Positions 10,545-35,304 of a stretch of DNA of 64,000 bases are shown here, in pieces. Location: the NCBI RefSeq assembly GCF_024218775.1, contig NZ_CP100404.1, positions 806,001 to 870,000 of the forward strand, written 5' to 3'. The position numbers and the translations under genes are program-made. The notes under the pieces are model-generated. The model did not search any database, was not told where the DNA came from, and saw only the letters and a program-made list of their open reading frames with translations. Within the stretch, counting starts at the first letter, position 1. The number at the start of each line of letters is the position of its first letter. The stretch comes from Haloarcula marina. GTDB taxonomy: Archaea > Halobacteriota > Halobacteria > Halobacteriales > Haloarculaceae.

Positions 10545-10592
10545 CCGTTCGACACTCGGCAGTTATAAGATAGTATTACGCGTAGTAGTGAC

Positions 10593-10620
10593 ATACAAAT
10601 CGGGTGCGAGTGGTTTGTAT
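10593..10620. promoter_or_regulatory. Inverted repeat upstream of the GT2 gene
   Basis: ATACAAA (10593-10599) and TTTGTAT (10614-10620) form a perfect inverted repeat with centres two helical turns apart, between an AT-rich promoter-like stretch (AGTTATAAGATAGTATTA, 10561-10578) and the ATG at 10635. The spacing suits binding of a dimeric regulator. Confidence 0.45.
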
Positions 10621-10634
10621 AGGGGAATGGTAGC

Positions 10635-15978: not shown

Positions 15979-17961
15979 ATGGTCTCGCTCTCACGCGTCG
16001 CTCGTCCCGCATCCGTCCCTCTCGCCGTCTGTCTGCTGGCGGCAATCGGCCTCGCCGCGCTCGATTTCCTCGCGGTGCTCGAACGGCCGACGCTCCTCCG
16101 CGCGGGCTTTACGCTCGTCGGGGCCGTCGTGGCGCTCGTCCTGTTCTACGCCTCGCGGGGTGAACGCCCCGTCTCCGCGCGACGGTTGCCGCCCGGCGCG
16201 ACGACCAAGGTGGTCCTCGTGGCCGCCGCGGCCGCCGTCGTCGCCAGCGCGGAACTCGGCGCTCGGGTGCTCCCGCTGGCCGTCCTCCTGCCCGTCGGGT
16301 TCCTGCTCGTCGCGCTCCAGATTCGCGGTGAGCCCTCGGTACCCGCGGTGCTGACCCAACTCTCGGCGCTGTTTCTCGCCGCGCGACTCGCCAAGTACGT
16401 CACGACCGGCTTCTACTTCGCCGGGACGGACACGTTCGCCCACGTCGCGGCCGTCGACACGCTCACCGAAGTCGGCTACACGACGGTCATTCCCCACGGC
16501 TACGACCTCTACCCGGTCTTTCACTTCCTCGTCGGCGCGGTCACGTACCTGACCGGCCTCCGGGCGTACGACGCGCTGGTGCTCGCGGGCATCGGCGTCT
16601 ACACGCTGGTCGTCCCGATTGCGTACCTCGTGGGCGCGTCGGTGTTCGAGTCGCGACGCCTCGGACTCACGGCCGCGCTCGGGGTCACGCTGTTCGAGTT
16701 CGCGGCGTACCACGCGGTGTACTTCTACCCGCAGGCGCTCGCCATCGTCCTGCTGTTCGTCGCCGTCTACCTCAACAGCCGCCTCCTCGCGGCCGACGAC
16801 GAGCGGACCTACCGCCGCCTCTCGGTGGCCGTCGTCGCGTTGGTGGCGACGATGGTGGTGGCACACCACCTGACGTACATCCTCTTTGCGGGCATCGTCG
16901 CGGCGGCCGTGCCGGTGGCGCTGGCCCGACCGTCCGTCTTCCCGGACCGGTCGTCGGTCACCGAGGCCCTCGGCGGCCGCTTCGGTGCGTTCCGCTACCG
17001 CTGGCTGTTCCCCGGCATCGTCGGCGCGGTGTTCCTCTTGGCGTACTGGACGTACACGCCGAGCATCATCGCCGTCGGTATCGTGGAGTTGACGCTCGGC
17101 GTCCTCTTCGACGTGGCGACGGTGCCCGGGTCGCAACTGTACGTTTACGGCACCGCGCTTCCGCCCGACAGCATCGCGCGGGCGGTCCGCTGGCTGACGA
17201 CGGCGACGGGCGTCTACGCCGTGGGACTGGGAGCCGTGTTACTCCTCGCTGGCTACGAACTGCTCGACCACCTCGGCCGCTACCGCCAGGGGTTCACCCT
17301 CGCCGTCACGGGACTCGGACTGTCGGCGGTACTGCTCCCCCTGCCGATTCCGATTCCGCAGTTAGAGCGCCTGAAGTTCACGGTTATTCTCGTCGCGGTG
17401 TTCCCGCTCGCCATCGGCCTCGACCGGGCGCTCTCCGTAGACCGGCGAGCAGTGGTCGTCGCGCTCCTCCTCGTCTCATCGCTCGGCACCGCCACGGCGT
17501 TTACCGTCGTCTCCGCGGACGACGTCTCGGGCATCTACACCGACGAGCGACGCGAGCAAGTGGCGATGTCCGACGACGAGTACCGCTCGGTGCAGGCCAC
17601 ATCGGCGTTCGTCCAGACCTACGCCGACGGCCCCGCGGCCACGGACAAGGTGACCAACCGCGCCTTCGAGACGACGGGATACAACGCGACGCGCGCCCTG
17701 CGGGCGCGACCCGGCGGCTTACGGGCGGACGCGCCGTTCTTCGTCGTCCGCGAGCGGTGGACCGACCACGTCGTCGCGCTCGGACAGGGCCTCCGTAGCG
17801 GCGACCTGAACCGCTTCGTGGTCGGTGACGACCGCTTCGCGGCGGCGGACGCGACGGCCGACAAGGTGTACACGACGGACCACGTGCGGGTGTACCACCG
17901 CGCCGACGGCTACCGGGGCTTCTACGGCGAGAACGTGACCGCGAACGCCACGAGTCAGTAG
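15979..17961 (+). CDS. Large polytopic membrane protein of the glycan locus
   Basis: A 660-aa protein with about 12-13 TM helices in its first 520 residues and an extracytoplasmic tail of about 140 residues (from SADDVSGIYTDERREQ). Between TM helices 4 and 6 it has TDTFAHVAAVDTLTE and HGYDLYPVFHFLVGAV, with conserved acidic/His loop residues reminiscent of GT-C membrane glycosyltransferases or oligosaccharyltransferase-like proteins. That resemblance is by layout only. The ATG at 15979 is preferred to an in-frame TTG at 15943. Its neighbours (flippase, GTs) favour a role in transfer or processing of lipid-linked glycans. Confidence 0.68.
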   Translation: MVSLSRVARPASVPLAVCLLAAIGLAALDFLAVLERPTLLRAGFTLVGAVVALVLFYASRGERPVSARRLPPGATTKVVLVAAAAAVVASAELGARVLPLAVLLPVGFLLVALQIRGEPSVPAVLTQLSALFLAARLAKYVTTGFYFAGTDTFAHVAAVDTLTEVGYTTVIPHGYDLYPVFHFLVGAVTYLTGLRAYDALVLAGIGVYTLVVPIAYLVGASVFESRRLGLTAALGVTLFEFAAYHAVYFYPQALAIVLLFVAVYLNSRLLAADDERTYRRLSVAVVALVATMVVAHHLTYILFAGIVAAAVPVALARPSVFPDRSSVTEALGGRFGAFRYRWLFPGIVGAVFLLAYWTYTPSIIAVGIVELTLGVLFDVATVPGSQLYVYGTALPPDSIARAVRWLTTATGVYAVGLGAVLLLAGYELLDHLGRYRQGFTLAVTGLGLSAVLLPLPIPIPQLERLKFTVILVAVFPLAIGLDRALSVDRRAVVVALLLVSSLGTATAFTVVSADDVSGIYTDERREQVAMSDDEYRSVQATSAFVQTYADGPAATDKVTNRAFETTGYNATRALRARPGGLRADAPFFVVRERWTDHVVALGQGLRSGDLNRFVVGDDRFAAADATADKVYTTDHVRVYHRADGYRGFYGENVTANATSQ

Positions 17962-17987: not shown

Positions 17988-19460
17988 CTACCCGCCGAAC
18001 TGCCGCACGTTGGCGAGCAGTTTGGCCCGGAGCGTCGGCGAGGCGAGGACGAGGCTCCCGTAGACGACGCCGCCGACGAGTATCTGTGCGACCAGTCCGG
18101 GAAGCGTCGCGGGGACGAACCGACCGGCCACGAGGAGGACGCCGCCCATCACCGCGGCCGCACCCGCACACCACGCGACGGGACCGGTCGGGAACGACAG
18201 CGGGACGAACCGGTTGAGGAATCCGCCGAGGACGAGGGTGTTGACGGTCATTGCGATGCCCGTCGCGGCCGCCGCGCCGACGAGTTCGTACCGGGGGACG
18301 AGCAGGAAGTTCAGGACGACGTTCAGCGTCAGCGACGCCGCCGTCGCGTACGCGCCCACGTCCGGCCGGTCGACGGCCCGCACCGTCGCGTCGAAGACGT
18401 TGTTGACCGCGGCGACCAACTTCTCGGCCATCAGGACGACGAACGCCACCGCCGCGAGCAGGAACTCGGGACCGAAAATGAGACCGAGTATCTGTTCGGA
18501 GAGGAGCGCCACGCCGACGAACGAGGGGACGACGAGGACGAGCGACGCCGTCAGACCGTCCCGCACAGTGGGCGCGATGCGCTCGCGCTCGCCCGCCGCG
18601 TCCCACGCGCTCATCTGGGCGAAGATGGTGTTCGAGACGACGACGCCGACGATACCGGTCATCACCGTCACCCGCCACGCGAGTTCGTAACTCGCGACGT
18701 GCGCCCCCGAGAGGAACAGGCCGACGACGAGGAGGTCCATGCTGTTGTAGACGTGCCCGCCCAATCCCCAGACGCCGTTGAACTTCGCGTAGTCGACGAG
18801 CGTTCGGAGGTGGCGCGTCGACGGCCGGGCCAGTCCCGTCTCCATCCGTCGGACCCCTGCGGCCAGCAACACGACGTAGCCCGCGATGAGGCCGTAGACG
18901 AGCGCCAGCGCCCCCATCTCGAACTGGACGAGGGCGACGGCGACGACGACGTAGGTAGCCAGACGCAGGAACTGGAGGATTGCCGTCTCGTCGGCCCGCA
19001 TCTCCGCTCGGAGGACGTGGAGCGTGAGCATCGACAGTTGGTACAACACCGCCGCGACGAGGAGGGGAAGGACGACCCGCGCGCCGACGTAGTCGTTGAC
19101 CGCGCCGCGGAAGGGGATGACGAGGGCGGCCAGTCCGAGTAGCAAGCCCCCCTTCAACACGAGTGCGGCCGCGAGGACGCTGTCGGCGTCACCGCCCTCG
19201 CTGATGCGCTTTTCCACCGCGCCGTTGACGCCGAAGTCGGCGAACGTCCCGAGCGTGCTCAACACCGCTTCGAACAGGAAGAAGACGCCGAGCGCAGTCG
19301 CGCCCAGCGCCCCGGCGAAGTACACCGTCGACCCGAACCCGATGACGACGCCGACCACTTCCAGCGCCAGCAATAGCCCGCCCGCTCTGGCGAAGTTGAG
19401 TTTGCGGGGCATCGTCGGCCGCCCGACGGGGCCGCTCTCGGGGTCACTGTCGCTGCTCAT
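17988..19460 (-). CDS. Oligosaccharide flippase (Wzx/AglR-like, MATE/MOP superfamily)
   Basis: A 490-aa membrane protein with about 14 TM helices. Family features are the N-terminal LNFARAGGLLLALEVVGVVIGFG, ALGVFFLFEAVLSTLGTFADFGVNGAVEKRIS, and the internal AEKLVAAVNNVFDATVRAVDRPD with the repeat-like second half. Members flip lipid-linked glycans across the membrane or export polysaccharide. It lies first in a minus-strand row facing the large membrane protein. A TATA-like GCTTTAATC on the minus strand near 19544-19552 would give a leader of about 60 nt. Confidence 0.88.
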   Translation of the reverse strand: MSSDSDPESGPVGRPTMPRKLNFARAGGLLLALEVVGVVIGFGSTVYFAGALGATALGVFFLFEAVLSTLGTFADFGVNGAVEKRISEGGDADSVLAAALVLKGGLLLGLAALVIPFRGAVNDYVGARVVLPLLVAAVLYQLSMLTLHVLRAEMRADETAILQFLRLATYVVVAVALVQFEMGALALVYGLIAGYVVLLAAGVRRMETGLARPSTRHLRTLVDYAKFNGVWGLGGHVYNSMDLLVVGLFLSGAHVASYELAWRVTVMTGIVGVVVSNTIFAQMSAWDAAGERERIAPTVRDGLTASLVLVVPSFVGVALLSEQILGLIFGPEFLLAAVAFVVLMAEKLVAAVNNVFDATVRAVDRPDVGAYATAASLTLNVVLNFLLVPRYELVGAAAATGIAMTVNTLVLGGFLNRFVPLSFPTGPVAWCAGAAAVMGGVLLVAGRFVPATLPGLVAQILVGGVVYGSLVLASPTLRAKLLANVRQFGG

Positions 19461-19589: not shown

Positions 19590-20369
19590 TCACCGGAACG
19601 CACGCGAGACCAGCGCTCGCAGAAGATGGACCAGCGTCGCGGGGTGCGGCGAGATGCGCAACGCCCGCAGGAAGTACGCGACGGCGCGGTCGTACTCGCC
19701 CTCGCGCTGGCAGGCCTGCCCGACGGTGGTGAACAGTTGGACGTAGTACGTGCCCACGTAGGGGTGGGCCTCCGGCACCCGCCGGTCGACGAGGTAGCCG
19801 AAGCGTTTCGCCTGCGCGAGGTACTCGTCGACGGCCATACCCGACGCCATCATGCTCTGGTCGTGGTGGCGGCGCGTGAACAGGTCCGGGCAGAGACAGA
19901 CGCCCGCGGCGCTGGCCGCTTCGAGGACGTACAGCGTGTCCTCGCCGCGCCGCAGCGTCGACTCGAAGCGGGTGTCGACGCGGTCGGTGTCGACGAGGAT
20001 GGCCGAGGTGACTTCGTCCAACTCGCCGACGAAGGCCTCGTAGACGAAGTCGTCGAGGGTCATCGGTTCGCCCGCGAGACAGAGGCCAGCGCCCGTCTCT
20101 CGCATCCGGGCCAACTGCCGGTCGAGTTTGTCCGGTTCCCACAGGTCGTCGGCGTCGAGGAAGGCGACGTAGCGCGTCTCGGCCCGGTCGAGTCCGGCGT
20201 TCCGGGCGTCCGCGGGACCGGTGTCCACGTCGTCGACGACGAGGAGTTCCGTCGGGACGGTCTGTGCCGCGACGGTCGCTTTCGCCTCTTCGAGCATCGC
20301 TTCGGGGGTGTACTTGGGGCTGTACGGCACGACGACCGACACCGTCTGCTCGGTGGGGTCGCTCACCAT
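19590..20369 (-). CDS. GT2-family glycosyltransferase
   Basis: A 259-aa protein starting at the ATG complementary to 20367-20369 ([18 protein letters not shown]). GT2 features: VVVPYS, LLVVDDV and [20 protein letters not shown]. The C-terminal 80 residues contain a possible helical repeat ([20 protein letters not shown]). No TM helix is obvious. It overlaps the upstream GT4 by 7 bp and is the last gene of a four-gene overlapping transcription unit (23749 to 19590). Sugar and acceptor unknown. Confidence 0.83.
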
Positions 20370-21592
20370 TCGGCCATCACCCGGCGGTGAACCTCGTTCA
20401 GTCGCTCGGCGTGGTGGTCCCACGTCCACCGCTCGTCGAGCAGACGCTGATGGCCCGCCGCGCCCATCTCTCGGAGTCGGGCGGGGTCGTCCAGCAGCGA
20501 ATCCAGCGTCCGCGAGAGCGTCTGCGGGTCTTTCGGGGGGACGAGGACGCCGGTGTCGCCGTCGACGACCATCTCGGGGATGCCGCCGACGTTCGAGGCC
20601 AGCACCGGGGTCTTGGCGGCCATCGCCTCGTAGATGACCGTCGGCCGCCCTTCGGTCCAACTCGGGTGGACCAGCAGGTCCGCCGCGATGTGCCAGCGCC
20701 GGAGCGCCACGGGGTCGAGTTGCCAGAACGACCGCGCCGGGTGCCGCAGTTCGCCGAGTTCGTTCAGCAGCCACCACCGCAGGTCGCCCTCGTGACCCAC
20801 CGTCACCAACAGCACGTCCTCGCGGTCAAGCGCGTCGACGGCCGTCACCAGTTCCCGCAGGCCCTTCTCTTTCGTGTAGGCGCCGACCGACAGCAGGACC
20901 TTCGTGTCGGGGTCGATACCCAACTCGTCGCGTATCTGGTCGCGCCGGTCAGTCGGGAACCGCGCGGGGTTCTCGCCGATGGGGACGGTGGTCACCTTCT
21001 CGGCGGGCGCAAAGCGCCGGGCGGCGGCCCCGAGTTCGTCGCTGACGACGAGGATGTGGGCGGCGTAGTCGATGGTCTCGCGGATGCGTTTTTGGGCCTC
21101 GTCGTTGAACGAGTCGTAGTTGTGCAGGTCGACGGCGTGGCTGTTGACCACCAGCGGCAGGTCGTGCCGCCGACAGTACTTCAGCATCCCGTAGCCGTCG
21201 AGGTAGATGTCCGAGGCGTGGACCACGTCGTGGGGCGTCTCGAAGGTCCGTTCGACGTACTTCGTGACGCGCTTCTGGATGGAGTCGCCCGACAGGTGGT
21301 AGCCGTAGCGCTTCGGGATGACGTACAAAAACCGGGGATAGTGGGCGACGTAGGTGCCCCAGCGCTCGGTCTTCGGGACCCGCGAGTACTCCGAGTACGG
21401 ACCGACGGGCGGGGCGAAGGGCGTCGGGACGACGACATCGAGGTCGGCGGCGGTGCGGTTCAGCGCGTCGAACGACCGGTGATTGAACGGCGAGCGAACC
21501 GGCAGGGCGTGGCTCTGGTGGTGGACGGAGCAGGCCAGCACGCGATAGGGGTCGCCGCCGTCGCCGGTGACGGAGAGGCGGTCGTCGCTCAC
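20363..21592 (-). CDS. GT4-family glycosyltransferase (paralogue of 22508-23749)
   Basis: A 409-aa glycosyltransferase with a GTG start that overlaps the preceding gene by 4 bp (GTGA). The C-terminal donor domain has the GT4 hallmark [33 protein letters not shown] and the phosphate-binding [13 protein letters not shown]. The N-terminal domain begins after [24 protein letters not shown]. It is clearly paralogous along its full length with the protein from 22508-23749, for example [14 protein letters not shown] in both, with one GT2 gene between them. It likely adds one sugar to a lipid-linked glycan; donor unknown. Confidence 0.87.
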
Positions 21593-22515
21593 TCTGGACC
21601 TCCCGCGGCGAGTGCACGGAGGCCGAGTACCGACCAGAACACGACCCGCGCGAGGTCTTTCGGCCGGGCGAGCGCCCCCACGTCGAGGTAGTCGGTGGCC
21701 TCGTCGAAGCGGCCCTCGGCGAGGAAGTGGCCGACGAGTCCCATCCGGTGGACGCGCCGGACCGGGATTCCTTCGGCCTCCAGTTCGGCCACGAGGGCGG
21801 CGTTCCGGTCGAGGTAGCGCCGGTCGTTCTCGACGTAGGCCGCGGCGGGCGCGTCGCCGGTGAAGTGGGTCAGCGCCAGCGGTTCGTCCACGTACGCCAG
21901 TTTCCCGGCCGCGAGGACTCGCAGGACGAGGTCCCAGTCCTCGTAGATGGAGAGGTCCTCGTCGAACCCGCCCGTCTCGTCGAGGACCGCCCGCTCGACC
22001 ACCAGGGTCGACCCCGGCCCCATGAACACCTGCATCGAGAGCAGCGAGGCGGCCAGTTCCCGCCCGCCCTCGCGGGGCGCGCTCGACCGGAACAGGCGGT
22101 CGGAGACGACAGTGGCGAGTCGACCGAGCGCCGACAGGCCCGCCGTCGCCACGTCGCAGTAGGCCCCGACCCACTCCTTGCCCCGGTCGTCGAGGACGGC
22201 GAGTTGCCGTTCGAGTTTCCGGGGAAGCCACTCGTCGTCCGAATCGAGGAAGGCGACGTACGCCCCCGTCGCGGCGTCGACGCCGGTGTTCCGGGCGGCG
22301 CTGACCCCGCGGTTCGTCTCGTGGGACAGATACCGCACCCGGGGGTCGTCGTATCCCTCGACCACCGCCCGCGTGTCGTCGCCGCTGCCGTCGTCGACGA
22401 CGAGGACTTCGGTGTCGTCGACCGTCTGTGCGAGGGCGCTGTCTATCGCGCGGCCGATAACGTCGCCCCGCTCGTAGGCCGGAATCACGACGCTCACGCG
22501 AGGCGAGTCAGTCAC
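21589..22515 (-). CDS. GT2-family glycosyltransferase
   Basis: A 308-aa protein with a GTG start (VTDSPRVSVVIPAYERG), overlapping the upstream GT4 gene by 8 bp and the downstream one by 4 bp. The GT2 core runs from residue 6 with VVIPAYERGDVIGRAIDSAL, VLVVDDGSGDD, YVAFLDSDDEWLPRKLERQL and DEDLSIYEDWDLVLRV. The last 60 residues form a helical tail with a short hydrophobic end. It may extend the same glycan as its neighbours. Confidence 0.85.
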   Translation of the reverse strand: MTDSPRVSVVIPAYERGDVIGRAIDSALAQTVDDTEVLVVDDGSGDDTRAVVEGYDDPRVRYLSHETNRGVSAARNTGVDAATGAYVAFLDSDDEWLPRKLERQLAVLDDRGKEWVGAYCDVATAGLSALGRLATVVSDRLFRSSAPREGGRELAASLLSMQVFMGPGSTLVVERAVLDETGGFDEDLSIYEDWDLVLRVLAAGKLAYVDEPLALTHFTGDAPAAAYVENDRRYLDRNAALVAELEAEGIPVRRVHRMGLVGHFLAEGRFDEATDYLDVGALARPKDLARVVFWSVLGLRALAAGGPE

Positions 22516-23749
22516 CCATGACCTCCCGGTGAATCTCGTTGAGGCGCTCGGCGTGGCGTCGCCACGTCCACTGCTGGTCGACCAGTCGCCGGTGGCCCGC
22601 CGCGCCCATCTCCCGCAACCGCTCGGGGTCGTCCAAGAGGTAGTCGAGCGTCTCGGCCAGCGTCTCGGGGTCGTGCGGTGTGACGAGGACGCCGGTTTCG
22701 CCGTCGACGACCATCTCTGGAATGCCGCCGACGTTCGAGGCCAGCACGGGCGTCTGGGCGGCCATCGCCTCGTAGATGACCGTCGGCCGGGCCTCGAAGT
22801 GACTCGGGTGGACGAGCAGGTCCGCGGCCACGTGGAGACGGCGGACGGCGATGGGGTCCAGTTGCCAGTAGGCGTGGGCGGGGTGGCGCAGTTCGCCCAG
22901 TCTGTCGAGGAACCACCAGTGGAGCGCCCCGCCGTGGCCGACGGCGGCCACGGCCACGTCGTCGCGGTCCAGCGATTCGAGCGCGGCGACGAGGTCACGG
23001 ACTCCTTTCTCCTTCTCGAAGCGGCCGACGTACAGGAGGAGTTTCGTCTCGGGGGCGATACCGAGTTCTCGGCGGATGGCGTCCCGGCGGTCGGTCGGGT
23101 AGTTCTCGGGGTCCTCGCCGATGGGGAGCGTGGTCACCTTGCTGGCGGGCGCGAACCGCCGCGCAATCGCGCTGAGTTCGTCGCTGACGGTCAGGACCGC
23201 CGAGCAGTAGTCGATGGTCTCGCGGATGTGGGACTGGACGGTGTCGTTGAACCGGTCGAAGTTCTTCAGGTCGCCCGCGTGCGAGAGGGCCACCAGCGGC
23301 ACGTCGTGGCGCTTGCAGTACTCCAGCGTGGCGTAGCCGTCGAGGTAGAACCCGCAGGCCTGCACCACGTCGTGGGGCGTCTCGAAGGTGTCTTCGACGT
23401 AGTTCGTGACGCGTTTCCGGGCGGAGTTGCCCGAGACGTGGTAGAAATACCGCTTCGGAAGCATGTACAGGAAACGCGGGTAGTGGACGCGATAGGACCC
23501 CCACTGTTCGGTCGTGGGGACGTGGCGGTACTCCGAGTACGGGCCGACGGGCGGGGCGAAGGGCGTCGGCGAGACGACGTCTAAGTCGACGCCGGTGGCG
23601 TTCAGGGCGTCGAACGACCGGTGGTTGAACGGCGTTCGGACCTGAAAGACGTGATTCGGGTGTTCGGTCGCACAGCCGAGGACGCGGTAGGTCGGGTCGT
23701 CGCTCGCTGTCGTCTCGTGGCCGGTTCGGGCAGAAGGTTCGTCTGACAT
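22508..23749 (-). CDS. GT4-family glycosyltransferase (paralogue of 20363-21592)
   Basis: A 413-aa protein, first gene of the overlapping GT operon, with an ATG start at 23749. The GT4 motif [24 protein letters not shown] and LLLYVGRFEKEKG are present. It shares the N-terminal [13 protein letters not shown] and [14 protein letters not shown] blocks with its paralogue. A TATA-like CCTTAAC on the minus strand near 23817-23823 gives a leader of roughly 45 nt or more. The duplication with divergence suggests two different linkages in one glycan. Confidence 0.87.
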   Translation of the reverse strand: MSDEPSARTGHETTASDDPTYRVLGCATEHPNHVFQVRTPFNHRSFDALNATGVDLDVVSPTPFAPPVGPYSEYRHVPTTEQWGSYRVHYPRFLYMLPKRYFYHVSGNSARKRVTNYVEDTFETPHDVVQACGFYLDGYATLEYCKRHDVPLVALSHAGDLKNFDRFNDTVQSHIRETIDYCSAVLTVSDELSAIARRFAPASKVTTLPIGEDPENYPTDRRDAIRRELGIAPETKLLLYVGRFEKEKGVRDLVAALESLDRDDVAVAAVGHGGALHWWFLDRLGELRHPAHAYWQLDPIAVRRLHVAADLLVHPSHFEARPTVIYEAMAAQTPVLASNVGGIPEMVVDGETGVLVTPHDPETLAETLDYLLDDPERLREMGAAGHRRLVDQQWTWRRHAERLNEIHREVMGD

Positions 23750-23929: not shown

Positions 23930-25102
23930 GTGACCGGGTTCGACCGCCGGTCGTATCTCGCGCTGGTTCTCGCGTCGACGATGGCTGGCTGTTCGCTGCC
24001 CGAGGATGAGTCGATGCCCGATCAGATAGTGACGGACGCGGCGTCGATAGCCGACCTCGCGGCGGGCGACGTGGTCGCCGTCGCGAACGGTCTGGACCGG
24101 ACGGCGATTCGGACCGACGAGACCGAGACGCCGGTACAGGACGCGCTGGATAGGGTCGCCGAGCGAGGGGGCGGACGCGTCTATCTCCCGCCGGGACTGG
24201 TCCGCGAGCGCGGGCCGGTGCGCCCGCACCCGAACACGGGCGTCTACGGCTTCGGCATGAACGTCTCGGTCCTCCAGATAACCGAGTCGGGGACCGACGG
24301 CATCCGATTCGACCGCGACACGAAGACCCAGCGGGTGCAACTCGACGGGTTCGAACTCCGCGGGCCGGGACTTGGCGTCGAGACGGGGGTCGCCCTCCAC
24401 TTCGTCTCGAACCCCGCCGACCCGGCCACGGACCCCGCGGACTTCTACGTCGGCCGCCTGTACTGCCGCGAGTGGGCGAACTCGGTGTACCGCGTCGATT
24501 CGGACGTGGGGCCGTTCCAGTGCCGCCACGACTTCCTCCGGATGGACGACTGCGACGCCGGGAACGAGAACGGTCTGTTGGAGTGGCGCTCCTCGTACGG
24601 CCCGGCCAACCGCTTCGGAACTGTTGTCGCCTATCCGACGGCGTCTCGAAGCGGCGCGAACACGGACCTCCTCTATCAGCGCGGCGGCGAACTCGCAGTC
24701 GGCGACATCACGACGGGCGGCACGTCGGGAACGCTCGTCGACACCCGCGCGGGTCGGCTTCACGTCGGCCGGTTGCACTACGAACCGGAGCGACAACCGA
24801 GCGTCCCCCGCACGCTGGTCCGCATCGGCGGCGGCGGCGCGACACGGTTCGACGACGTGGTCGTCGACGCCGGGGCGGTCGGGTACGTCTACGAACTGGG
24901 CGCGGGGGCCGGGAACGCGCTGTTGTTCGGACCGCCGGGCGGCCGCGGCGAGGTCCGACGCAACGTCGTCAACATCGCAGGCACCCTCGACCGGACCCGC
25001 CGCTCGTGGTATTTCGGCAGGCCCGCCGAGGTGGACGTGACTCGCGGGTCCCAAACTGGAAGTCTCCGCGTCCTCGGGACGGCCGGGCAGGGGATGGGCT
25101 GA
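23930..25102 (+). CDS. Exported parallel beta-helix (pectate lyase-like) lipoprotein
   Basis: A 390-aa protein. The GTG at 23930 is chosen because it gives DRRSYLALVLASTMAGC, a Tat-like export signal with a lipobox (Cys21); in-frame TTG (23918) and GTG (23921) codons lie just upstream. The body has TPVQDALDRVAERGGGRVYLPPG, the usual entry of single-stranded right-handed beta-helix proteins such as tailspikes and pectate lyases. A block around NSVYRVDSDVGPFQCRHD and CDAGNENGL is shared with the protein from 27333-28658. The C-terminal SLRVLGTAGQG is also shared. No catalytic residues can be assigned. It may bind or trim the glycan made by the locus. Confidence 0.75.
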   Translation: MTGFDRRSYLALVLASTMAGCSLPEDESMPDQIVTDAASIADLAAGDVVAVANGLDRTAIRTDETETPVQDALDRVAERGGGRVYLPPGLVRERGPVRPHPNTGVYGFGMNVSVLQITESGTDGIRFDRDTKTQRVQLDGFELRGPGLGVETGVALHFVSNPADPATDPADFYVGRLYCREWANSVYRVDSDVGPFQCRHDFLRMDDCDAGNENGLLEWRSSYGPANRFGTVVAYPTASRSGANTDLLYQRGGELAVGDITTGGTSGTLVDTRAGRLHVGRLHYEPERQPSVPRTLVRIGGGGATRFDDVVVDAGAVGYVYELGAGAGNALLFGPPGGRGEVRRNVVNIAGTLDRTRRSWYFGRPAEVDVTRGSQTGSLRVLGTAGQGMG

Positions 25103-25145
25103 GCCACCGACAAGACTATTCGCCGGTGGTACAGACTGCTTACTC

Positions 25146-26168
25146 GTGCCGACTTCCCGTGACGAGACGGCCCGACCCTTCGTGTCCGTCGTCATCGTCA
25201 CCTACAACTCCGAACAGACGGTCGCAGAGACGCTGTCGTCCCTCGCCGACCAGACGTACCCCGCGGACCGCTACGAGGTTCTCGTCGTCGACGGCGGGTC
25301 GACCGACCGAACCGAGGATATCGCGGCCGCACACGGCGTCGAGTTCCGGGTCGCGGCGGACGCGACCATCGGCGAGTGTCGGAACCACGGCGTCGACGCC
25401 GCTCGCGGCGAGTACGTCGCCTTCACCGACTCGGACTGTGCGGTCCCGTCGACGTGGCTCGACTCGCACGTCGACCGCATCGAGAGCTATCCAGACCGCG
25501 TGGACATCGCGGGCGTCGGGGGGCCGAACCGGCCGTTCCCCGACGACCCGCCGTTCGCGAAACTCGTCGGGAGTCTGCAGGGGACCGTCTTCGGGTCCGG
25601 CGGGTCACCGCAGTCTCACGCCATCGGGAAGGTCCGACTCGTCGGTTCCGTCGCGGCCTGTAACGTCCTCTACGACGCCAGCGTGTTCGAGGAACATCGG
25701 TACGACGACGAGGTCAACGTCGGTGAGGACGCCGAGTTCCACTTCCGCCTGAGTGAGGCGGGCTACCGGTTCGTCTTCGACCCGGCCATCGCCGTCTCGC
25801 ACCACCTCTCGGCCGACTGGGGTGCGTTCTGCAAGAAGAGCCGTTCGTACGGCTACGCGATGGCCCGCATCCAGCGTCGCCACGGCAAGGTCATCCGCTG
25901 GTACTCCGCGCTCCCGTCGCTGGCGCTCGGCGGCGGCGTCCTCGCGGTGGCCGACGACCTGCGGAGTCGGCGGGCGCGCAACGTCCCGTTGCTGGCGCTC
26001 GCGTTCCTCGTCGTCACCGCCTTCGCCACCGCGCAGGTGTACCGCGACCGGCGGACGCCGCTGGCGGTGCTCGTCCCGGTCATGCTGGCCGCCCAGTACG
26101 GCTACTACGGCCTCGGTTTCCTCGAAGGACTGACGGCGCCCGACCCGGTCCCGCAGGACCTCCCTTAA
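25146..26168 (+). CDS. GT2-family glycosyltransferase with C-terminal membrane anchor
   Basis: A 340-aa protein with a GTG start. The GT2 core has VSVVIVTYNSEQTVAETLSSL, VLVVDGGSTDRT, YVAFTDSDCAVP and EDAEFHFRLSEAGYRFVFDP. The C-terminal part holds three hydrophobic segments (about 252-268, 275-293 and 297-318). A TATA-like element (gactattcg near 25112) is about 30 bp upstream. It converges on the gene at 26165 with a 4-bp overlap. It is likely to act at the cytoplasmic membrane face on a lipid-linked acceptor. Confidence 0.85.
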   Translation: MPTSRDETARPFVSVVIVTYNSEQTVAETLSSLADQTYPADRYEVLVVDGGSTDRTEDIAAAHGVEFRVAADATIGECRNHGVDAARGEYVAFTDSDCAVPSTWLDSHVDRIESYPDRVDIAGVGGPNRPFPDDPPFAKLVGSLQGTVFGSGGSPQSHAIGKVRLVGSVAACNVLYDASVFEEHRYDDEVNVGEDAEFHFRLSEAGYRFVFDPAIAVSHHLSADWGAFCKKSRSYGYAMARIQRRHGKVIRWYSALPSLALGGGVLAVADDLRSRRARNVPLLALAFLVVTAFATAQVYRDRRTPLAVLVPVMLAAQYGYYGLGFLEGLTAPDPVPQDLP

Positions 26169-27283
26169 GCCCGGTAGATGCCGACGGCCCAGTGGTGTTC
26201 GCCGAGGACCTGATACCCCAGTCCGAGAGTCCCGTCTACCGCGCAGTGCCACCCCTCGCCGTCGTACCACGCGTCGACCTGATGCATGGACCCGGAGTTC
26301 CACCCGAGGCCGCCGGTCCCCTCGACGGCGGGCGAGTCGTGGCGCTCCTCGTCGGCGAACGCCGTCGGCGTCAACTCCGAAATCTCGTACAGTCGGACCT
26401 TCTCACCGTAGCGGGCGGCGCAGTCCTGATAGAACGCGAGGACGCGGTCCTCGAAGACGAGGGGACGACCGCCGGGTCGCCCGGCGCGCACCCGGTTCTC
26501 GACGACGGGGTTCTCGGCGTGGGGCGTCCAGTCGGGTGCCTCGAGGTCGTCGCTGTAGTACGCGTAGAGGTCGCGGCCGTCGCCGACGAGCGCCCACCAG
26601 CGGTCCTCCCACCGGAAGGGGCTGAAGTCGTGCAGCGGCGTCGACGGCCGCACGAGGTCCGCGACGGGGGTCCACTCGTGGGGGAACGACTCGGCGCGGT
26701 ACAGCGTCACGCCCGCCGGTCCCCGCTCTTTGGCCCACCGGTCGGGAACCATGTAGTAGTCGCCGTCCCAGCGAAAGACGTAGGGGTACGAGAGGTGCTC
26801 GTCGGTTTCGAGGACCACGCGGTCGTAGGTCCACTCGTAGCCGTCGTCGCTCTCGGCGTGGGCGATAGCCGCCGTCGGCGTTCGGCGGTGGTTGTACACC
26901 TCGACGAACATGTGCCAGCGGCCGTCGGCGACCAGTAAGAACGGGTCGGCGACGCAGTCGGCGTGGCCGAAGTCCGTCACGTCTCCCGCCGTGAGGACGG
27001 GGTTGACGTCGCCCGCCGGTTCGAACAGCGACGGCGCGCGGTCGGCGTCGTAGGGGTACGTGGGGACCGTGTCGCCCTCGTGGCGACCGGTCAGGTCGAC
27101 GGGGTCCGGTACCCGAGAGGCCGGTGGCGTCCGCATGTGGAGACGCTCTCCGGCGTGCCACGCGACTCGTTCGGCCAGCGTCGACTTCGCGAGGGTCTCG
27201 CGGGCCGAGCGCACGACGGGGTCGAACCGGTACTGCGCGTGTGCGAGCAATCGCGTTCGGGACGTGTCCTCGCCGATAGTCAC
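26165..27283 (-). CDS. GINT1-like (glucosamine inositolphosphorylceramide transferase N-terminal type) beta-propeller protein
   Basis: A 372-aa protein with a GTG start. The sequence is rich in aromatic residues and shows five-blade-propeller-like repeats: CVADPFLLVADGRWHMFVEV, DEHLSYPYVFRWDGDYYMVP and LHDFSPFRWEDRWWALVG. Such repeats are typical of the GH43-like domain annotated as glucosamine inositolphosphorylceramide transferase family in prokaryotes. In polysaccharide loci these proteins accompany glycosyltransferases; the actual reaction in archaea is unknown. A minus-strand TATA-like GTTAAGT lies 25-31 bp before the start, indicating a leaderless transcript. Confidence 0.75.
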   Translation of the reverse strand: MTIGEDTSRTRLLAHAQYRFDPVVRSARETLAKSTLAERVAWHAGERLHMRTPPASRVPDPVDLTGRHEGDTVPTYPYDADRAPSLFEPAGDVNPVLTAGDVTDFGHADCVADPFLLVADGRWHMFVEVYNHRRTPTAAIAHAESDDGYEWTYDRVVLETDEHLSYPYVFRWDGDYYMVPDRWAKERGPAGVTLYRAESFPHEWTPVADLVRPSTPLHDFSPFRWEDRWWALVGDGRDLYAYYSDDLEAPDWTPHAENPVVENRVRAGRPGGRPLVFEDRVLAFYQDCAARYGEKVRLYEISELTPTAFADEERHDSPAVEGTGGLGWNSGSMHQVDAWYDGEGWHCAVDGTLGLGYQVLGEHHWAVGIYRA

Positions 27284-27307
27284 TGCCTACCCGTCCGCTC
27301 CCGGGGT

Positions 27308-27314
27308 ACTTAAC
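27308..27314 (-). promoter_or_regulatory. TATA box for the GINT1-like gene
   Basis: Minus-strand GTTAAGT, 25-31 bp before the GTG at 27283. Confidence 0.55.
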
Positions 27315-27332
27315 CACATACGACCGACACGG

Positions 27333-28658
27333 TCAGAATCCGGTTCCGGCCGTCCCGAGTGCCCGCAGTCCGCCGGTGTTGCCGTCGTTGTGGGTCACGG
27401 TCACGTCGTTGGGCGACCCCTGATACAGCGATGGGTTACTCGGGTCGCCCGGAGCAGAGAGGTTGATCACGTTCGAGGCGATGTCGGCGTCCGCGCCGAG
27501 TTCGATGTACGGGCCGAGCACCTTCCGCGCGGGGCCGCGGCCGTTGTAGTCGTCGTAGCCCAGTTCGTACACGTAGTCGGCGGTGCCGGTGACGTGCTTG
27601 ACCGCGCCGACGAGGGCGGTGCCGTGGCCGCGGAGGCGGACGATAGCGGACGGATTCGAGGGGTTCGTGGTCGGTTCCCAGTGGACGTGACCGAACTCGA
27701 CGACGCTGTCCCACGTCTGGTCGACGGCGACACCCGCCGACCCCCCCATCGTGAGGTAGTCGACCGTCTGGGTGCCGCCGCGGGAGAAGAACACGGTGGT
27801 GTTCTGCCCGCTCACGTTCGCGCTCGGGTAGGCCGCGATGGTCCCGAACCAGTTCGCGGGACCGTACCACGACCGGAACTCGAACAGGCCGTCCTGGTCG
27901 CCCGCGTCACACTCGTAGATGGTGAGTTGGTCGTGGCGGCACTGGAACGGGCCGACGCCCTCGTCGACGCGGTAGACGGAGTTGTTCCACCCCCACAGGA
28001 GGAGGCGACCGACTTTGAGGTCTTGCGTGTCCCTGTTGGTGTGATGGATGGCGACGCCAGTGGGGCCGGTTCCCGCCGGGCCGTTGAGCGCGAACCCGTC
28101 GAGGGCGACGCGACTCACGCCGGACTCGCGGTCGAACAGGATGCCGTCGGCGTCGCGGTCGGTGATGGAGATTTTCGTTATCTCGACGCCGAGACCGATG
28201 ATCTGGGTCTCCTCGTAGGGGCGAATCGGCCCCGTCTCCTCGACGACGCCCGCCGGGAGGCGCACCTCGCCGCCGCCGTTGGCCGCGACGAGGTCCAGTG
28301 CGTCCTGTATCGGGGTGTCGGTCCCCGCTGGGTCGATGGACTGCGGGGCCGAGAGGTTCCGCGCCAGTGCGACTACGTAGCCGTCGAGGAGGAGCGATGT
28401 GATGCCGCTCCCCTCGACGGCCGCCGCGTCGGTCCCGATGGTCCCGAGTTGGGCCCACGAGCCACCGTCGCCGATGTAGACGTTGCCCGTGTCCGTCGCG
28501 AGGAACTTCGCGCCGGATTTGGCGGTGTAGTTCGAGCGGTTGGCATCCGTATCGCGTATCTCCACGTCCGTGTCGATGCGTTCGAAGTTGCGGTTCAGCG
28601 GGAGGTGCCAGTCCAGCGTTCCCGCCGGTGGCGTCTCGTATTGATGGTTGTCTGTCAT
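27333..28658 (-). CDS. Parallel beta-helix protein with tailspike-like N-terminus
   Basis: A 441-aa protein with no visible signal peptide or TM helix. Residues 1-75 resemble the attachment part of viral tail or fibre proteins: GTLDWHLPLNRNFERIDTD, then AKFLATDTGNVYIGDGGSW. The beta-helix entry (TPIQDALDLVAANGGGEVRLPAG) follows. The body then aligns with the lipoprotein at 23930, including NSVYRVDEGVGPFQCRHD, CDAGDQDGL, YGPANWFGT and the C-terminal LRALGTAGTG. It starts 2 bp after the double-LamG gene, so the two are surely co-transcribed, which suggests the products work together. A polysaccharide-binding or -cleaving surface protein is the best guess; the export route is unclear. Confidence 0.72.
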   Translation of the reverse strand: MTDNHQYETPPAGTLDWHLPLNRNFERIDTDVEIRDTDANRSNYTAKSGAKFLATDTGNVYIGDGGSWAQLGTIGTDAAAVEGSGITSLLLDGYVVALARNLSAPQSIDPAGTDTPIQDALDLVAANGGGEVRLPAGVVEETGPIRPYEETQIIGLGVEITKISITDRDADGILFDRESGVSRVALDGFALNGPAGTGPTGVAIHHTNRDTQDLKVGRLLLWGWNNSVYRVDEGVGPFQCRHDQLTIYECDAGDQDGLFEFRSWYGPANWFGTIAAYPSANVSGQNTTVFFSRGGTQTVDYLTMGGSAGVAVDQTWDSVVEFGHVHWEPTTNPSNPSAIVRLRGHGTALVGAVKHVTGTADYVYELGYDDYNGRGPARKVLGPYIELGADADIASNVINLSAPGDPSNPSLYQGSPNDVTVTHNDGNTGGLRALGTAGTGF

Positions 28659-28660
28659 GG

Positions 28661-30673
28661 TCAGGATGTGTCGAGGAAGCCGCCGTACCCGTAGCTTCCG
28701 TAGCCGCGTTCGCCGAACTCGTCGTTCGGTATGGGCGTCGCCGTGGCCGTCGCAGTCGGGGTGAGCGTCTCGGTCAGCGTCTCCGTTATCGTCGGCGTTT
28801 CGCTCGGTGTCGGCGTTGGCGTCGCCGTTTCGGTCGGTGTCGCGGTTGGTGTTTCGGTCGGCGTGGGTGTCGGCGTCGCCCCGCTCTCTTCGACCAGCGC
28901 CGTGACCTCGCTCGCGGTCAGCGCCACGTCGTAGACGCGCACGTCGTCGACGCTCCCCACCAGACCGTAGTAGGAGGTGTAGCCGTTGTCGCCGCGGCCG
29001 ACGTACAGCGAGCGGTCGGTGTGGACCACCGGCCCGGACTGGGAGGTGTCGCGCCCGACTTCCTCGCCGTCGAAGTACACGACGAGAGCCGCGCCGTCCC
29101 ACGTGCAGAAGACGTGATGCCACCGGCCGTCGTTCGTGTCGAGGCCGAAGGGGTTCACCGAGGCGCGGCCGCTCTCGGCGCCGACGTGGGCGCGGAGGCT
29201 GTTCGGCGTCTGCACGTCGACGGCGTAGCCTTCCTCGCCGAAGCGGGAATCGGCCTTCTGGACGACCGTCTGGCTGTTGATGCCGCTGTCGGTGCGGAAC
29301 CACCCGCCGAAGGAGAGTTCGGCGGGCCGGAGGGCGGCGGCGTCGGCCACCTCCACGTAGTCGCTGTTCGAGTCGAACGCGACGCCGGAGGTCCCGAACA
29401 CGCCGTCCGTGTCGAGCGTCGGCGCCCCGCGGAGGAAGCCGTCGGCGGCCCCGACGGCGTCGGCCGCGACGGTCCCACCCGTCTCCTCGAAGCGCCAGCG
29501 GGCGACCGGGGTGGGGCCGTTATCGGGCGTGGGCGTCGGCGTGGGCGTCGCTGTCGGCGTGGGGGTAGGTGTGGCCGTGGGTGTCGGAGTTGGCGTGGGT
29601 GTCGGCGTTGGCGTCGGCGTCGGGGTAGGTGTGGCCGTGGGTGTCTCCGTTGGCGTCGGAGTCGGCGTGGGCGTGGGCGTCGCTGTTGGGGTTGGCGTCG
29701 GGGTTTCGGTCGCCGTGGGTGTCTCCGTCGGCGTGGACGTCTCGGTAGCCGTGGGCGTCGCGGTGGCTGTCGCGGTCGGCGTCGCAGTGGCCGTCGGCGT
29801 CTCGCTCACGCCCTCGGACAGCGCGGTGACCTCGCTCGCCGAGAGCGCCCGGTCGTAGACGCGAACGTCGTCGATAGCGCCGTCCATGTCGTAGTAGGTA
29901 GTGTAGCCGTTGTCGCCGCGGCCGACGTACAGCGAGCGAGTCGTGTGGACGACCGCACCCGACTGCGAGGTGTCCCGGTCGACCTCGGCGCCGTCGAGGT
30001 ACATCACGAGGGCCGTGCCGTCCCACGTGCAGAACACGTGGTGCCACTCTCCATCGTTGGTCCCGATGCCCCACGGATTCACGGCGGCACGCCCGCTCTC
30101 GACGCCGACGTGGGCGCGTAGACTGTTGGGGGTCTGGACGTCGACGGCGTAGCCTTCCTCGCCGAAGCGCGAGTCGGCTTTCTGGAGAACCGTCTGACTG
30201 TTCGCACCGCTGTCGGTGCGGAACCATCCGCCGAAGGAGAGTTGGGCGGGCCGGAGGGCGGCGGCGTCGGCCACCTCCACGTAGTTGTCGGCGCTGGTCC
30301 CGAACTCGTAGGCGCGCGTGTCGTAGACGCCGGGGACGCCCTGCTGGGGTGACCCGCGGAGCGCGCCGTCGTTCCCGCCGACAGCGTCAGTCGCCGTCGC
30401 CCCGGTCCCGTCCAGCGGCCAGTGCGCGCGGAGGCCGTCCCCTGCTCCGACGAGCGCGGGAAGGTGGGGCGCGAACGCCGCCGCCGGTACGTCGTCCGTG
30501 ATGCGCCACGGGAATCCCCCGTAGCCCAGGCGACGTTCACCGTCTCGCGCGCCGAGGCACCCGGCGACAGACGTCGTTCCGAGAGCGGTGAGACCGGTCA
30601 GTTTGAGGAGCGACCGACGACTGAGTTCGGTGCGCTCCCCGTCGTCACCGTCTGGCGGCGGGTCTGGTTCCAT
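28661..30673 (-). CDS. Tat-exported lipoprotein with two LamG domains and Thr-Pro linkers
   Basis: A 670-aa protein. The N-terminus carries [22 protein letters not shown], a Tat motif plus lipobox with Cys39. Two LamG/concanavalin-like domains at about 60-285 and 388-590 are near duplicates ([25 protein letters not shown] and its copy; [22 protein letters not shown]). A Thr-Pro-rich linker of about 100 residues joins them, and a second one (about 598-648) leads to a Gly/Tyr-rich C-terminus ([11 protein letters not shown]) that echoes YGGF just after the lipid anchor. LamG domains usually bind sugars, so it may hold glycan at the cell surface. A minus-strand TATA box is at 30697-30704. Confidence 0.85.
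28930..30285 (-). repeat. Duplicated LamG-coding segments
   Basis: Segments at about 28930-29345 and 29840-30285 are DNA-level repeats: for example, the stretch gtagccgttgtcgccgcggc occurs at about 28980 and 29906. They encode the two LamG domains, so the gene grew by internal duplication fairly recently. Confidence 0.75.
29524..29815 (-). repeat. Low-complexity Thr-Pro-coding tract
   Basis: About 290 bp of imperfect hexamer-type repeats (gtgggcgtcggc and variants on the plus strand) encode the main Thr/Pro/Glu/Ala linker. A smaller tract lies at about 28735-28880. Thr-rich linkers of secreted haloarchaeal proteins are possible O-glycosylation sites. Confidence 0.85.
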
Positions 30674-33885: not shown

Positions 33886-35304
33886 ATGGACTTACCGAAC
33901 CGGCAATCGCCCGATTCGCCGCCCGGCCCGTCGCGCCGACGGTTCCTGACGGCGCTCGGGGCCGTCGCGGGGACGGGTGCGCTCGCGGGGTGTTCGTTCG
34001 GGAACCGCGACGCGGCCCGCGACGAACAGACAGACAGTGAGACGGCTGACGGGGGCGACGGCGGCAGCGACACCGGCGGGTCCGGCGGCAACTACTTCGA
34101 ACCCGGGCCGACCGTTCGACTCGAAGAAGTCGCGACCGGTCTCGTCTCGCCGAGCGCCCTCGTCACCGCCGACGACGGAATGGACCGTCGGTTCATCCTC
34201 GACCAAGTGGGCGTCGTGCACGTCCACGACGCCGAGGGCCTCCGCGAGGACCCGTTTCTGGACCTCTCGGACCGACTCGTCGCGCTCGGTGAGGACCTGC
34301 CCAACTGGGTCGCCTACGACGAGCGCGGTCTGTTGGGGTTGGCCTTCCATCCCGAGTTCGCCTCGAACGGCCTGTTCTACGTCCGGTACAGCGCGCCCGC
34401 CGACGACCCGGAACTGGACCACCGCGAACGCCTCTCGGAGTTCCGAGCAACCGAGGACGGCGAGCGCGGCGACCCGGACAGCGAGCGCGTCCTGTTGGAC
34501 CTCCCGTGGGAACGGCCCATCCATCAGGCCGGAAGCATCGAGTTCGGGCCCGACGGCTACCTCTATGCCGCCCTCGGCGACGGCCTGAACCCGTTCAACG
34601 GACAGGACCTCACGCACAACCTCAAGGGAAGCGTCCTGCGACTCGACGTGGACGGCCGCACCGACGACAAACCCTACGGCGTCCCCGAGGACAACCCGCT
34701 CGTCGGGCAGGACGGCCGGGACGAACACTACGCGTGGGGCCTGCGGAACCCGTGGAAGATGGCCTTCAGCGGCGACCAGTTACTCCTCGGCGACGTGGGC
34801 CAAGCCACGTGGGAGGAGGTAAACGTCGTCGAGAAGGGGGCGAACTACGGGTGGCCGCTGAAGGAGGGGTATCACTGTCACGACCCGCAACTGGGGACCA
34901 GCGAGGACGGCGAGTGCGTCGTCGAGTCCGACCGGGGCGAACCGCTGGTCGACCCCGTCTTGGAGTTCCCGCACTTCGACGAGGCGGGCGACGCCGTCGG
35001 GTTCGCCGTCATCGGCGGCCACGTTCACACCGGGTCGGTCGACGCAATCCGCGACTCGTACGTCTTCGGCGTGTTCACGAGTTCGTTCACCGCGGCCGCG
35101 GGCCGCCTCGTCGCGGCGACGCCCCGCGAGGACGGCCGCTGGCCGATGCGAGAGATTCGGGTCGCGGGCGGTCTCGACATCCAGGTCCTCTCGCTCGGCG
35201 TCGACGGCGACGACAGCTACGTCCTCGGGACGCGCGCGGCGCTGAGCGACGGCCCGCTCACGAAACGCGAGGGCGTCGTCTACCGCGTCCGCCCTCCGCA
35301 GTAA
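33886..35304 (+). CDS. PQQ-dependent sugar dehydrogenase-type lipoprotein
   Basis: A 472-aa exported protein. SRRRFLTALGAVAGTGALAGC gives a Tat motif and a lipobox (Cys36). After a Ser/Gly/Asp linker comes a six-bladed propeller of the glucose/sorbosone dehydrogenase family: RGLLGLAFHPEFASNGLFYV, RPIHQAGSIEFGPDGYLYAALGDG, HYAWGLRNPWKMAFSGDQLLLGDVGQATWEEVN and GANYGWPLKEG. Members oxidise aldoses with PQQ, but haloarchaea are not known for PQQ synthesis, so cofactor and substrate are open. It is divergent from the GlmU-like gene. Confidence 0.86.
   Translation: MDLPNRQSPDSPPGPSRRRFLTALGAVAGTGALAGCSFGNRDAARDEQTDSETADGGDGGSDTGGSGGNYFEPGPTVRLEEVATGLVSPSALVTADDGMDRRFILDQVGVVHVHDAEGLREDPFLDLSDRLVALGEDLPNWVAYDERGLLGLAFHPEFASNGLFYVRYSAPADDPELDHRERLSEFRATEDGERGDPDSERVLLDLPWERPIHQAGSIEFGPDGYLYAALGDGLNPFNGQDLTHNLKGSVLRLDVDGRTDDKPYGVPEDNPLVGQDGRDEHYAWGLRNPWKMAFSGDQLLLGDVGQATWEEVNVVEKGANYGWPLKEGYHCHDPQLGTSEDGECVVESDRGEPLVDPVLEFPHFDEAGDAVGFAVIGGHVHTGSVDAIRDSYVFGVFTSSFTAAAGRLVAATPREDGRWPMREIRVAGGLDIQVLSLGVDGDDSYVLGTRAALSDGPLTKREGVVYRVRPPQ

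Follow-up and report, generated by a model that had tools for sequence, protein, structure and literature searches.

The stretch of Haloarcula marina DNA analysed here (the window: 64,000 nucleotides (nt), positions 806,001 to 870,000 of contig NZ_CP100404.1) carries, within a glycan locus, the genes of two related proteins, here called A and B, of which the first has an export signal and the second has none that can be seen. This raises the question of where B resides and, if it is a surface protein, by what route it would get there. The N-terminus of A (MTGFDRRSYLALVLASTMAGC) contains a twin arginine followed after 13 residues by the cysteine of a MAGC lipobox, a spacing that lies inside the 12-21 residues between second arginine and lipobox cysteine of haloarchaeal lipoproteins of the twin-arginine translocation (Tat) pathway (PMC2945643). 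No signal peptide is visible on inspection of the 441-residue sequence of B. Both observations agree with an earlier note on this DNA, as does the paralogy of the two proteins. A and B share 44% identity over 374 residues in BLASTP (267 bits), a similarity far above chance, and the NSVYRVD..VGPFQCRHD block and C-terminal LR.LGTAG.G that the note had singled out are conserved across all aligned orthologues of both clades. In AlphaFold models both proteins are right-handed beta-helices. The reading favoured here, to which an even chance is given, is that A and B are surface proteins that bind or process the polysaccharide made by the surrounding gene cassette, and that B would be docked through an N-terminal module on a C-terminal tag of the neighbouring LamG lipoprotein, with which it would leave the cell as a Tat hitchhiker.

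The N-terminal module of B and the tag of its upstream neighbour

Residues 1-75 of B recur as the N-terminus of many otherwise unrelated proteins in about 90 of the 391 haloarchaeal genomes searched, and an alignment of 16 diverse rows contains 23 invariant columns; A lacks this module. The domains that follow it include beta-helices, C1q-like domains (weak matches), polysaccharide lyase 14 (PL14; E 1.7e-20), endosialidase-type chaperones (E 2.6e-9) and unknown domains. The opening ∼30 residues of the module correspond to the start of virus adhesins (loci L068/L069, L168, L170, L171, L172, L188 and others), with which they share the motif xP..G..DW..PLN.NF..iD at the extreme N-terminus. The remainder of the L168 adhesin matches a PHROG tail fibre (E 1.3e-32), and L069 carries a reverse transcriptase open reading frame (ORF) resembling the type found in diversity-generating retroelements. 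B therefore appears to carry an attachment module of the virion type, and the viral-tail-like N-terminus proposed in the earlier note finds its evidence in this motif, which opens tail-adhesin and tail-fibre proteins in viral contigs, and not in the weak match to Pfam PF18454 (Mtd_N), which is below the cut-off (18.0 bits for B vs 26.3; 15.6-16.7 bits for other module proteins). In contrast to its viral counterparts, the haloarchaeal module is longer (about 75 residues, with GAKFLATDTG.VY.GDG) and fused to many cellular domains.

The module also occurs in other settings. Elsewhere in the genome of the window (L018 6934-8477; G000:C1 about 2,959,900-2,961,500) two tandem genes encode a short form (TENRxYNLPQEGDADW..PVNENW..ID) that lacks the Mtd-like part and has no tag nearby. 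Convergent pairs of module paralogues (419-430 residues) are found in polysaccharide loci on pHH400-type replicons of Haloarcula (L048, L049, L061, and L071), where only one member of each pair follows a tagged lipoprotein and the same region encodes a membrane peptide of 57-84 residues ending in a GYG tag. In L070 (5541-6849) and L096, a T4 gp19-like tail-tube gene lies directly upstream of a module protein with an endosialidase-type chaperone; no provirus is obvious there, and the genes may belong to some contractile or tail-like apparatus.

Directly upstream of B is the gene of a LamG lipoprotein, with 18 residues between the second arginine and the lipobox cysteine as in Tat lipoproteins, so that a signal-less protein is encoded together with a Tat-signal protein. 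Between its stop codon and the start of B lie 2 nt, and in most genomes with a B orthologue the LamG lipoprotein gene abuts or overlaps that of B. A programmed frameshift joining the two proteins was considered and dropped, as the junction varies from -18 to +4 nt between genomes. The LamG lipoprotein ends in a tag of pentapeptide-spaced [FY]G. This pattern, D[DE][FY]GxxG[YF]GxxG[YF]GG after a P/T/S-rich linker, very often ends the gene directly upstream of a module gene, whatever the remainder of the tagged protein. In 49 of 113 non-duplicate cases such a gene ends at most 160 nt ahead of the module gene's start or at most 4 nt past it, a descriptive count, the pattern having been refined on data later counted, and a further 14 module genes share their locus with a tagged gene. 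That module and tag are always paired was rejected on this count. One match in the genome of the window, at 2,178,119, was set aside because it sits on a spurious-looking frame.

Three checks of the tag are more independent of that refinement: a reversed pattern, a Phe-only control and viral loci. Among 9,747 ORFs scanned, the pattern is found 74 times and its reverse 7 times. By genome, module and Y-type tag occur together in 52, the tag alone in 18, the module alone in 39 and neither in 282 (Fisher p 9e-25, a value that ignores shared ancestry), while the Phe-only pattern has no genome-level association with the module. Retrieval of viral loci by the module motif gave 47, in which only two of 1,687 ORFs carry the tag; both encode tail proteins, one of 1,120 residues in L168 and one in L195, which is the same contig as L069. 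In the sister contig L068, the homologue of the tagged protein matches PHROG baseplate families. Each of the two tagged proteins is encoded two genes upstream of a motif-bearing adhesin with a small protein between, and this small protein matches phrog_5417 in L168 and L068. The haloarchaeal and viral arrangements differ in that the tag is borne by a Tat lipoprotein in the former and by a baseplate protein in the latter.

Among 43 upstream proteins with the strict pattern, 41 have a twin-arginine motif (the ORFs of the remaining two were called with a late start) and 38 combine it with a lipobox; GYGG just past the mature start was found in nearly all of the 43 on inspection. Their remaining content varies from LamG domains to short, linker-only lipoproteins, with little beyond signal, linker and tag in L057 and L062, and the domains behind the adjacent modules vary likewise (beta-helix, C1q-like, endosialidase-chaperone). 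Bacterial capsule kinases of the CpsD type carry YGX repeats that are tyrosine-phosphorylated, and the tag could by analogy be a phosphorylated tail that regulates polysaccharide synthesis instead of a docking peptide. Several tag loci are polysaccharide clusters, and some tags end ParA/MinD-like ATPases (ORFs of 480, 615, and 567 residues in L106, L127, and L144), some of them near module genes, which may hint at a part in regulation or assembly. A phosphorylated tail is nonetheless considered improbable, given that most tags end Tat-exported lipoproteins, out of reach of a cytoplasmic kinase after export, that the tag directly precedes a module gene and that 27 of the 49 tags have Phe where the first Tyr would be.

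A further indication comes from the B clade itself. In Natronomonas (L011 and L012) and in one genome of the genus of the window (L032), one tandem copy of the B type carries a Tat lipobox where the module would otherwise be. Since these copies group inside the B clade and not with A, module and lipid anchor look interchangeable, lineages having apparently swapped surface anchors or kept one of each, which is the replacement that docking of B would predict. The earlier note had described the pair as one lipid-anchored and one tailspike-like protein. Both features are present, but two separate locations are improbable, as B looks docked to the upstream LamG lipoprotein and lipobox copies of B occur in two genera.

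It is proposed that A is exported by Tat and held at the membrane by its own lipid, and that the first ∼75 residues of B form an attachment module of the virus tail-fibre type which would dock on the [FY]GxxGYGxxGYGG tag at the C-terminus of the LamG lipoprotein. Folded B and its LamG partner would then pass the Tat channel together, and the lipid of the latter would keep both at the surface, with the beta-helix facing the cassette glycan that A and B may recognize or process. Most haloarchaeal lipoproteins are exported by Tat (PMC2945643), and Tat can transport partners that lack a signal (PMC4273604). These precedents argue for docking alongside the adjacency of module and tag with its varied partners and heads, the twin-arginine and lipobox motifs of the tagged proteins, the genome-level association, the viral pairing, the lipobox copies of B, and the PL14 lyase domain behind the module elsewhere. 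The arrangement resembles Tat hitchhiker complexes such as Escherichia coli PaoABC (PMC4273604) in that a signal-less protein is encoded beside a Tat-signal protein; unlike in those complexes, partners unrelated to one another share a short C-terminal tag and a modular N-domain in the putative haloarchaeal pairs.

Several points weigh against docking. Besides the shared ancestry behind the Fisher value and the refinement of the pattern, the loci were picked from matches and not at random, and many come from closely related Haloarcula genomes. The viral evidence for the tag amounts to two lineages, and tags also occur without an adjacent module, on membrane peptides and ParA/MinD-like proteins. 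The module is poorly modelled in B (predicted local distance difference test score (pLDDT) mostly 29-58 over residues 1-80). About 50 of the 113 module genes, the PL14 family included, have no recognizable tag in the fetched locus, and the module must therefore have other partners or roles. These proteins, together with the missing signal on B, would also fit a cytoplasmic B, or one exported by an unknown route, with module and tag adjacent merely as members of surface-polysaccharide operons and a module that only trimerizes; Mtd-like and tail-fibre N-domains often oligomerize. That explanation is judged unlikely, although less so than a phosphorylated tail, in view of the fixed order and close spacing in which tagged gene and module gene follow each other across unrelated domain contents, the same gene order in two virus lineages and the lipobox copies inside the B clade.

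Taken beyond the window, docking would make the module and tag parts of a general haloarchaeal surface-display system derived from, or held in common with, virus tails, in which a Tat lipoprotein with a baseplate-type [FY]GxxGYGxxGYGG tag would carry co-exported, docked module proteins with exchangeable heads. Candidate heads are beta-helices, C1q-like domains, fibre chaperones and perhaps lyases, although the lyase module genes have no adjacent tag. This wider proposal, in which the LamG lipoprotein and B would be the pair in the window, is put at slightly below an even chance. In cohesin-dockerin display a peptide-domain pair likewise joins an anchor protein to a displayed enzyme; the haloarchaeal pair differs in its unrelated sequences, in having no scaffoldin and in usually having one partner per anchor.

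Fold and possible chemistry of the beta-helix core

The AlphaFold models have a mean pLDDT of 85.8 for A and 82 for B, in which most of residues 91-420 are at about 90 or more. VIA matches over about 280-320 residues identify the core as a right-handed parallel beta-helix of the pectate-lyase-like kind. The best fold matches are the A-modules of the mannuronan C5-epimerases AlgE6 and AlgE4 (Foldseek E 4e-3 to 5e-3; Z 27.9 and 27.7), which have a similar helix length but are only 12-14% identical in sequence, and the scores of phi29 gp12, the adhesin PfbA and many tailspikes are nearly equal in both Foldseek and VIA (VIA Z about 24-27). Matches in BFVD are tail spikes and phage pectate-lyase-like proteins (best E 2e-4). 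Resemblance to tailspikes and pectate-lyase-like proteins (HK620, Sf6, CBA120 TSP2, phi29 gp12) extends to a beta-helix over nearly the whole core, the N-terminal attachment module of B and a helix-capped start (GTDTPIQDALD..GGG.V.LP); A and B differ from them in being only about 10% identical, encoded in a cellular glycan locus and accompanied by a lipoprotein paralogue. Sequence profiles are less informative, with no match to any chain in a search against solved structures at E up to 10, only weak matches when A and B were scanned against PHROG and Pfam, and PF12708 (Pect-lyase_RHGA_epim) below its cut-off in A (11.4 bits vs 27) and not listed for B.

Since epimerases, an adhesin and tailspikes match at nearly equal score, the modelled fold is sure and the chemistry is not. 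A tailspike-type glycan depolymerase, as the earlier note had envisaged, is accordingly not borne out as stated. It is quite possible, if less probable than not, that A and B are glycan-cleaving enzymes (depolymerases or lyases of the tailspike type) that trim the cassette polysaccharide, their anchoring being incidental. Tailspike depolymerases, alginate lyase/epimerase and fructotransferases are among the fold matches and the module is elsewhere joined to a PL14 lyase domain, but non-catalytic adhesins such as PfbA have the same fold at equal score and no profile match links A or B to a solved enzyme. The top rank of the AlgE modules could be taken to mean that the pair epimerize uronic acids of the polysaccharide at C5, as AlgE and AlgG do; the Z scores of these modules lie within about 3 units of those of tailspikes and adhesins and do not discriminate, and such an activity is considered improbable. 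Residues invariant within the A/B alignment are E328, D251, H326, R230, and R241.

Viral relatives and ancestry of the core

A profile search with the core detected L059 and L067 as well as two cellular outliers, L054 and L058. L059 is the same region as the 37-kb IMG/VR contig L153, which encodes a tape-measure protein nearby (PHROG E 7e-17), and a scan of viral contigs added L154, in which a beta-helix follows a terminase (PHROG E 6e-53) and a portal (E 3.5e-55). Together with the match of the module to viral tail-adhesin N-termini, these relatives support the kinship with viral receptor-binding and tail proteins suggested in the earlier note. The C-terminal head domain of the L059 protein, a part absent from A and B, matches proteins of HRTV-4 and HRTV-29. 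Just upstream of the L059 beta-helix, a tail-region protein (9673-11109) opens with repeated TYGG/FGG motifs (GVTFGGAMGATYGGATGSVYGG). L067 (G159:C42, 11,562 bp) is a virus-like element of small size. It carries genes for an integrase, an ATPase-like protein, small proteins that may form a capsid and, akin to A and B, a beta-helix spike, which has no convincing match among phage records.

In the tree, A and B form sister clades with the viral sequences outside them on long branches, the exact placement of which is unsure. A and B constitute an old cellular clade, joined to viral sequences by long branches only, and the direct capture of a virus gene proposed earlier is not supported. The beta-helix family is thus common to haloarchaea and their viruses, through an exchange that may have run either way, early or late. 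Full-length B has no relative in IMG/VR or among 50,697 phage records, and the 80-residue module has no match in the phage records; a close viral source is therefore absent from the sets searched. The genes of both proteins are part of a conserved glycan cassette, not of a virus tail module, and their viral relatives are distant. The viral relatives of core and module could be read as a sign that A and B are what is left of a provirus tail gene, or a recent acquisition of one, without function in the host. This is already disfavoured and highly improbable, given the long branches, the lack of viral genes flanking the pair and the presence in 18 further genomes of the 391 of full-length B orthologues (63-88% identity), nearly always with an A-type paralogue nearby in the same cassette.

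The glycan cassette and the meaning of the pair

Gene calling and Pfam place A and B inside a conserved haloarchaeal glycan cassette of ∼20 kb (Table 1), which contains GT4 and GT2 glycosyltransferases, a flippase, a large membrane protein, GlmS, a sugar-1-phosphate nucleotidylyltransferase, an NAD-dependent epimerase and a Gfo/Idh/MocA oxidoreductase, in addition to a glucose/sorbosone dehydrogenase (GSDH)-type lipoprotein, a GINT1_N-like protein and the LamG lipoprotein. The same cassette, with RefSeq names, is found on a Halobaculum plasmid. The GSDH-type Tat lipoprotein would be a surface sugar dehydrogenase beside glycan genes, and the protein conserved beside B belongs with GINT1_N, the N-domain family of a plant sphingolipid glycosyltransferase.

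Table 1. Positions in the window of A, B, their parts and the cassette genes around them
Feature	Position	Strand	Remarks
Membrane protein	15979..17961	+	no Pfam match; kept in cassette; a polymerase role is a guess
Polysaccharide flippase	17988..19460	-	Polysacc_synt_3/MurJ-like
Four glycosyltransferases	19590..23749	-	two GT4-type, two GT2-type
Protein A	23930..25102	+	GTG start, 390 residues; Tat lipoprotein (twin arginine, lipobox MAGC) with right-handed beta-helix core
GT2-type glycosyltransferase	25146..26168	+	
GINT1_N-like protein	26165..27283	-	conserved neighbour of B; PF24793 E 2.4e-36
Protein B	27333..28658	-	ATG at 28658, 441 residues; N-terminal tail-fibre-type module and right-handed beta-helix
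Beta-helix core of B, residues 84-441	27336..28409	-	AlphaFold model and fold matches
N-module of B, residues 1-75	28434..28658	-	MTDNHQYETPPAGTLDWHLPLNRNFERIDTDV...GAKFLATDTGNVYIGDGGSW; 16-row alignment, viral N-termini
LamG Tat lipoprotein	28661..30673	-	two LamG domains, P/T-rich linker; Laminin_G_3 E 3.9e-50
C-terminal tag of LamG lipoprotein	28679..28723	-	pentapeptide-spaced [FY]G
GlmS	30798-32597	-	
Sugar-1-phosphate nucleotidylyltransferase	32601-33689	-	
GSDH-family Tat-type lipoprotein	33886..35304	+	conserved in cassette; GSDH E 2.7e-32

The new element of the locus is the N-terminal ∼75 residues of B, a module paired with an upstream tag. Adhesins of haloarchaeal tailed viruses are known host-range determinants (PMC8651126), and a search of the text of that paper found neither the module of B nor the tag. 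No paper came up in literature searches that linked haloarchaea to tail fibre, exopolysaccharide and lipoprotein, to hitchhiker Tat or to the major tropism determinant. If docking is true, it would explain the route to the surface of many signal-less haloarchaeal proteins with tail-fibre-like N-termini and would name the peptide and the domain that join them to their carriers. It would also suggest a way in which some viruses of archaea and bacteria fix their tail fibres to the baseplate, an uncharacterized step that would become testable with two short sequences, and it may provide a salt-stable peptide-domain pair for protein display. For the haloarchaea themselves, it would mean that the attachment device of virus adhesins has been taken up beside polysaccharide biosynthesis genes, which suggests the reuse of a virus part by cells for the surface display of proteins.

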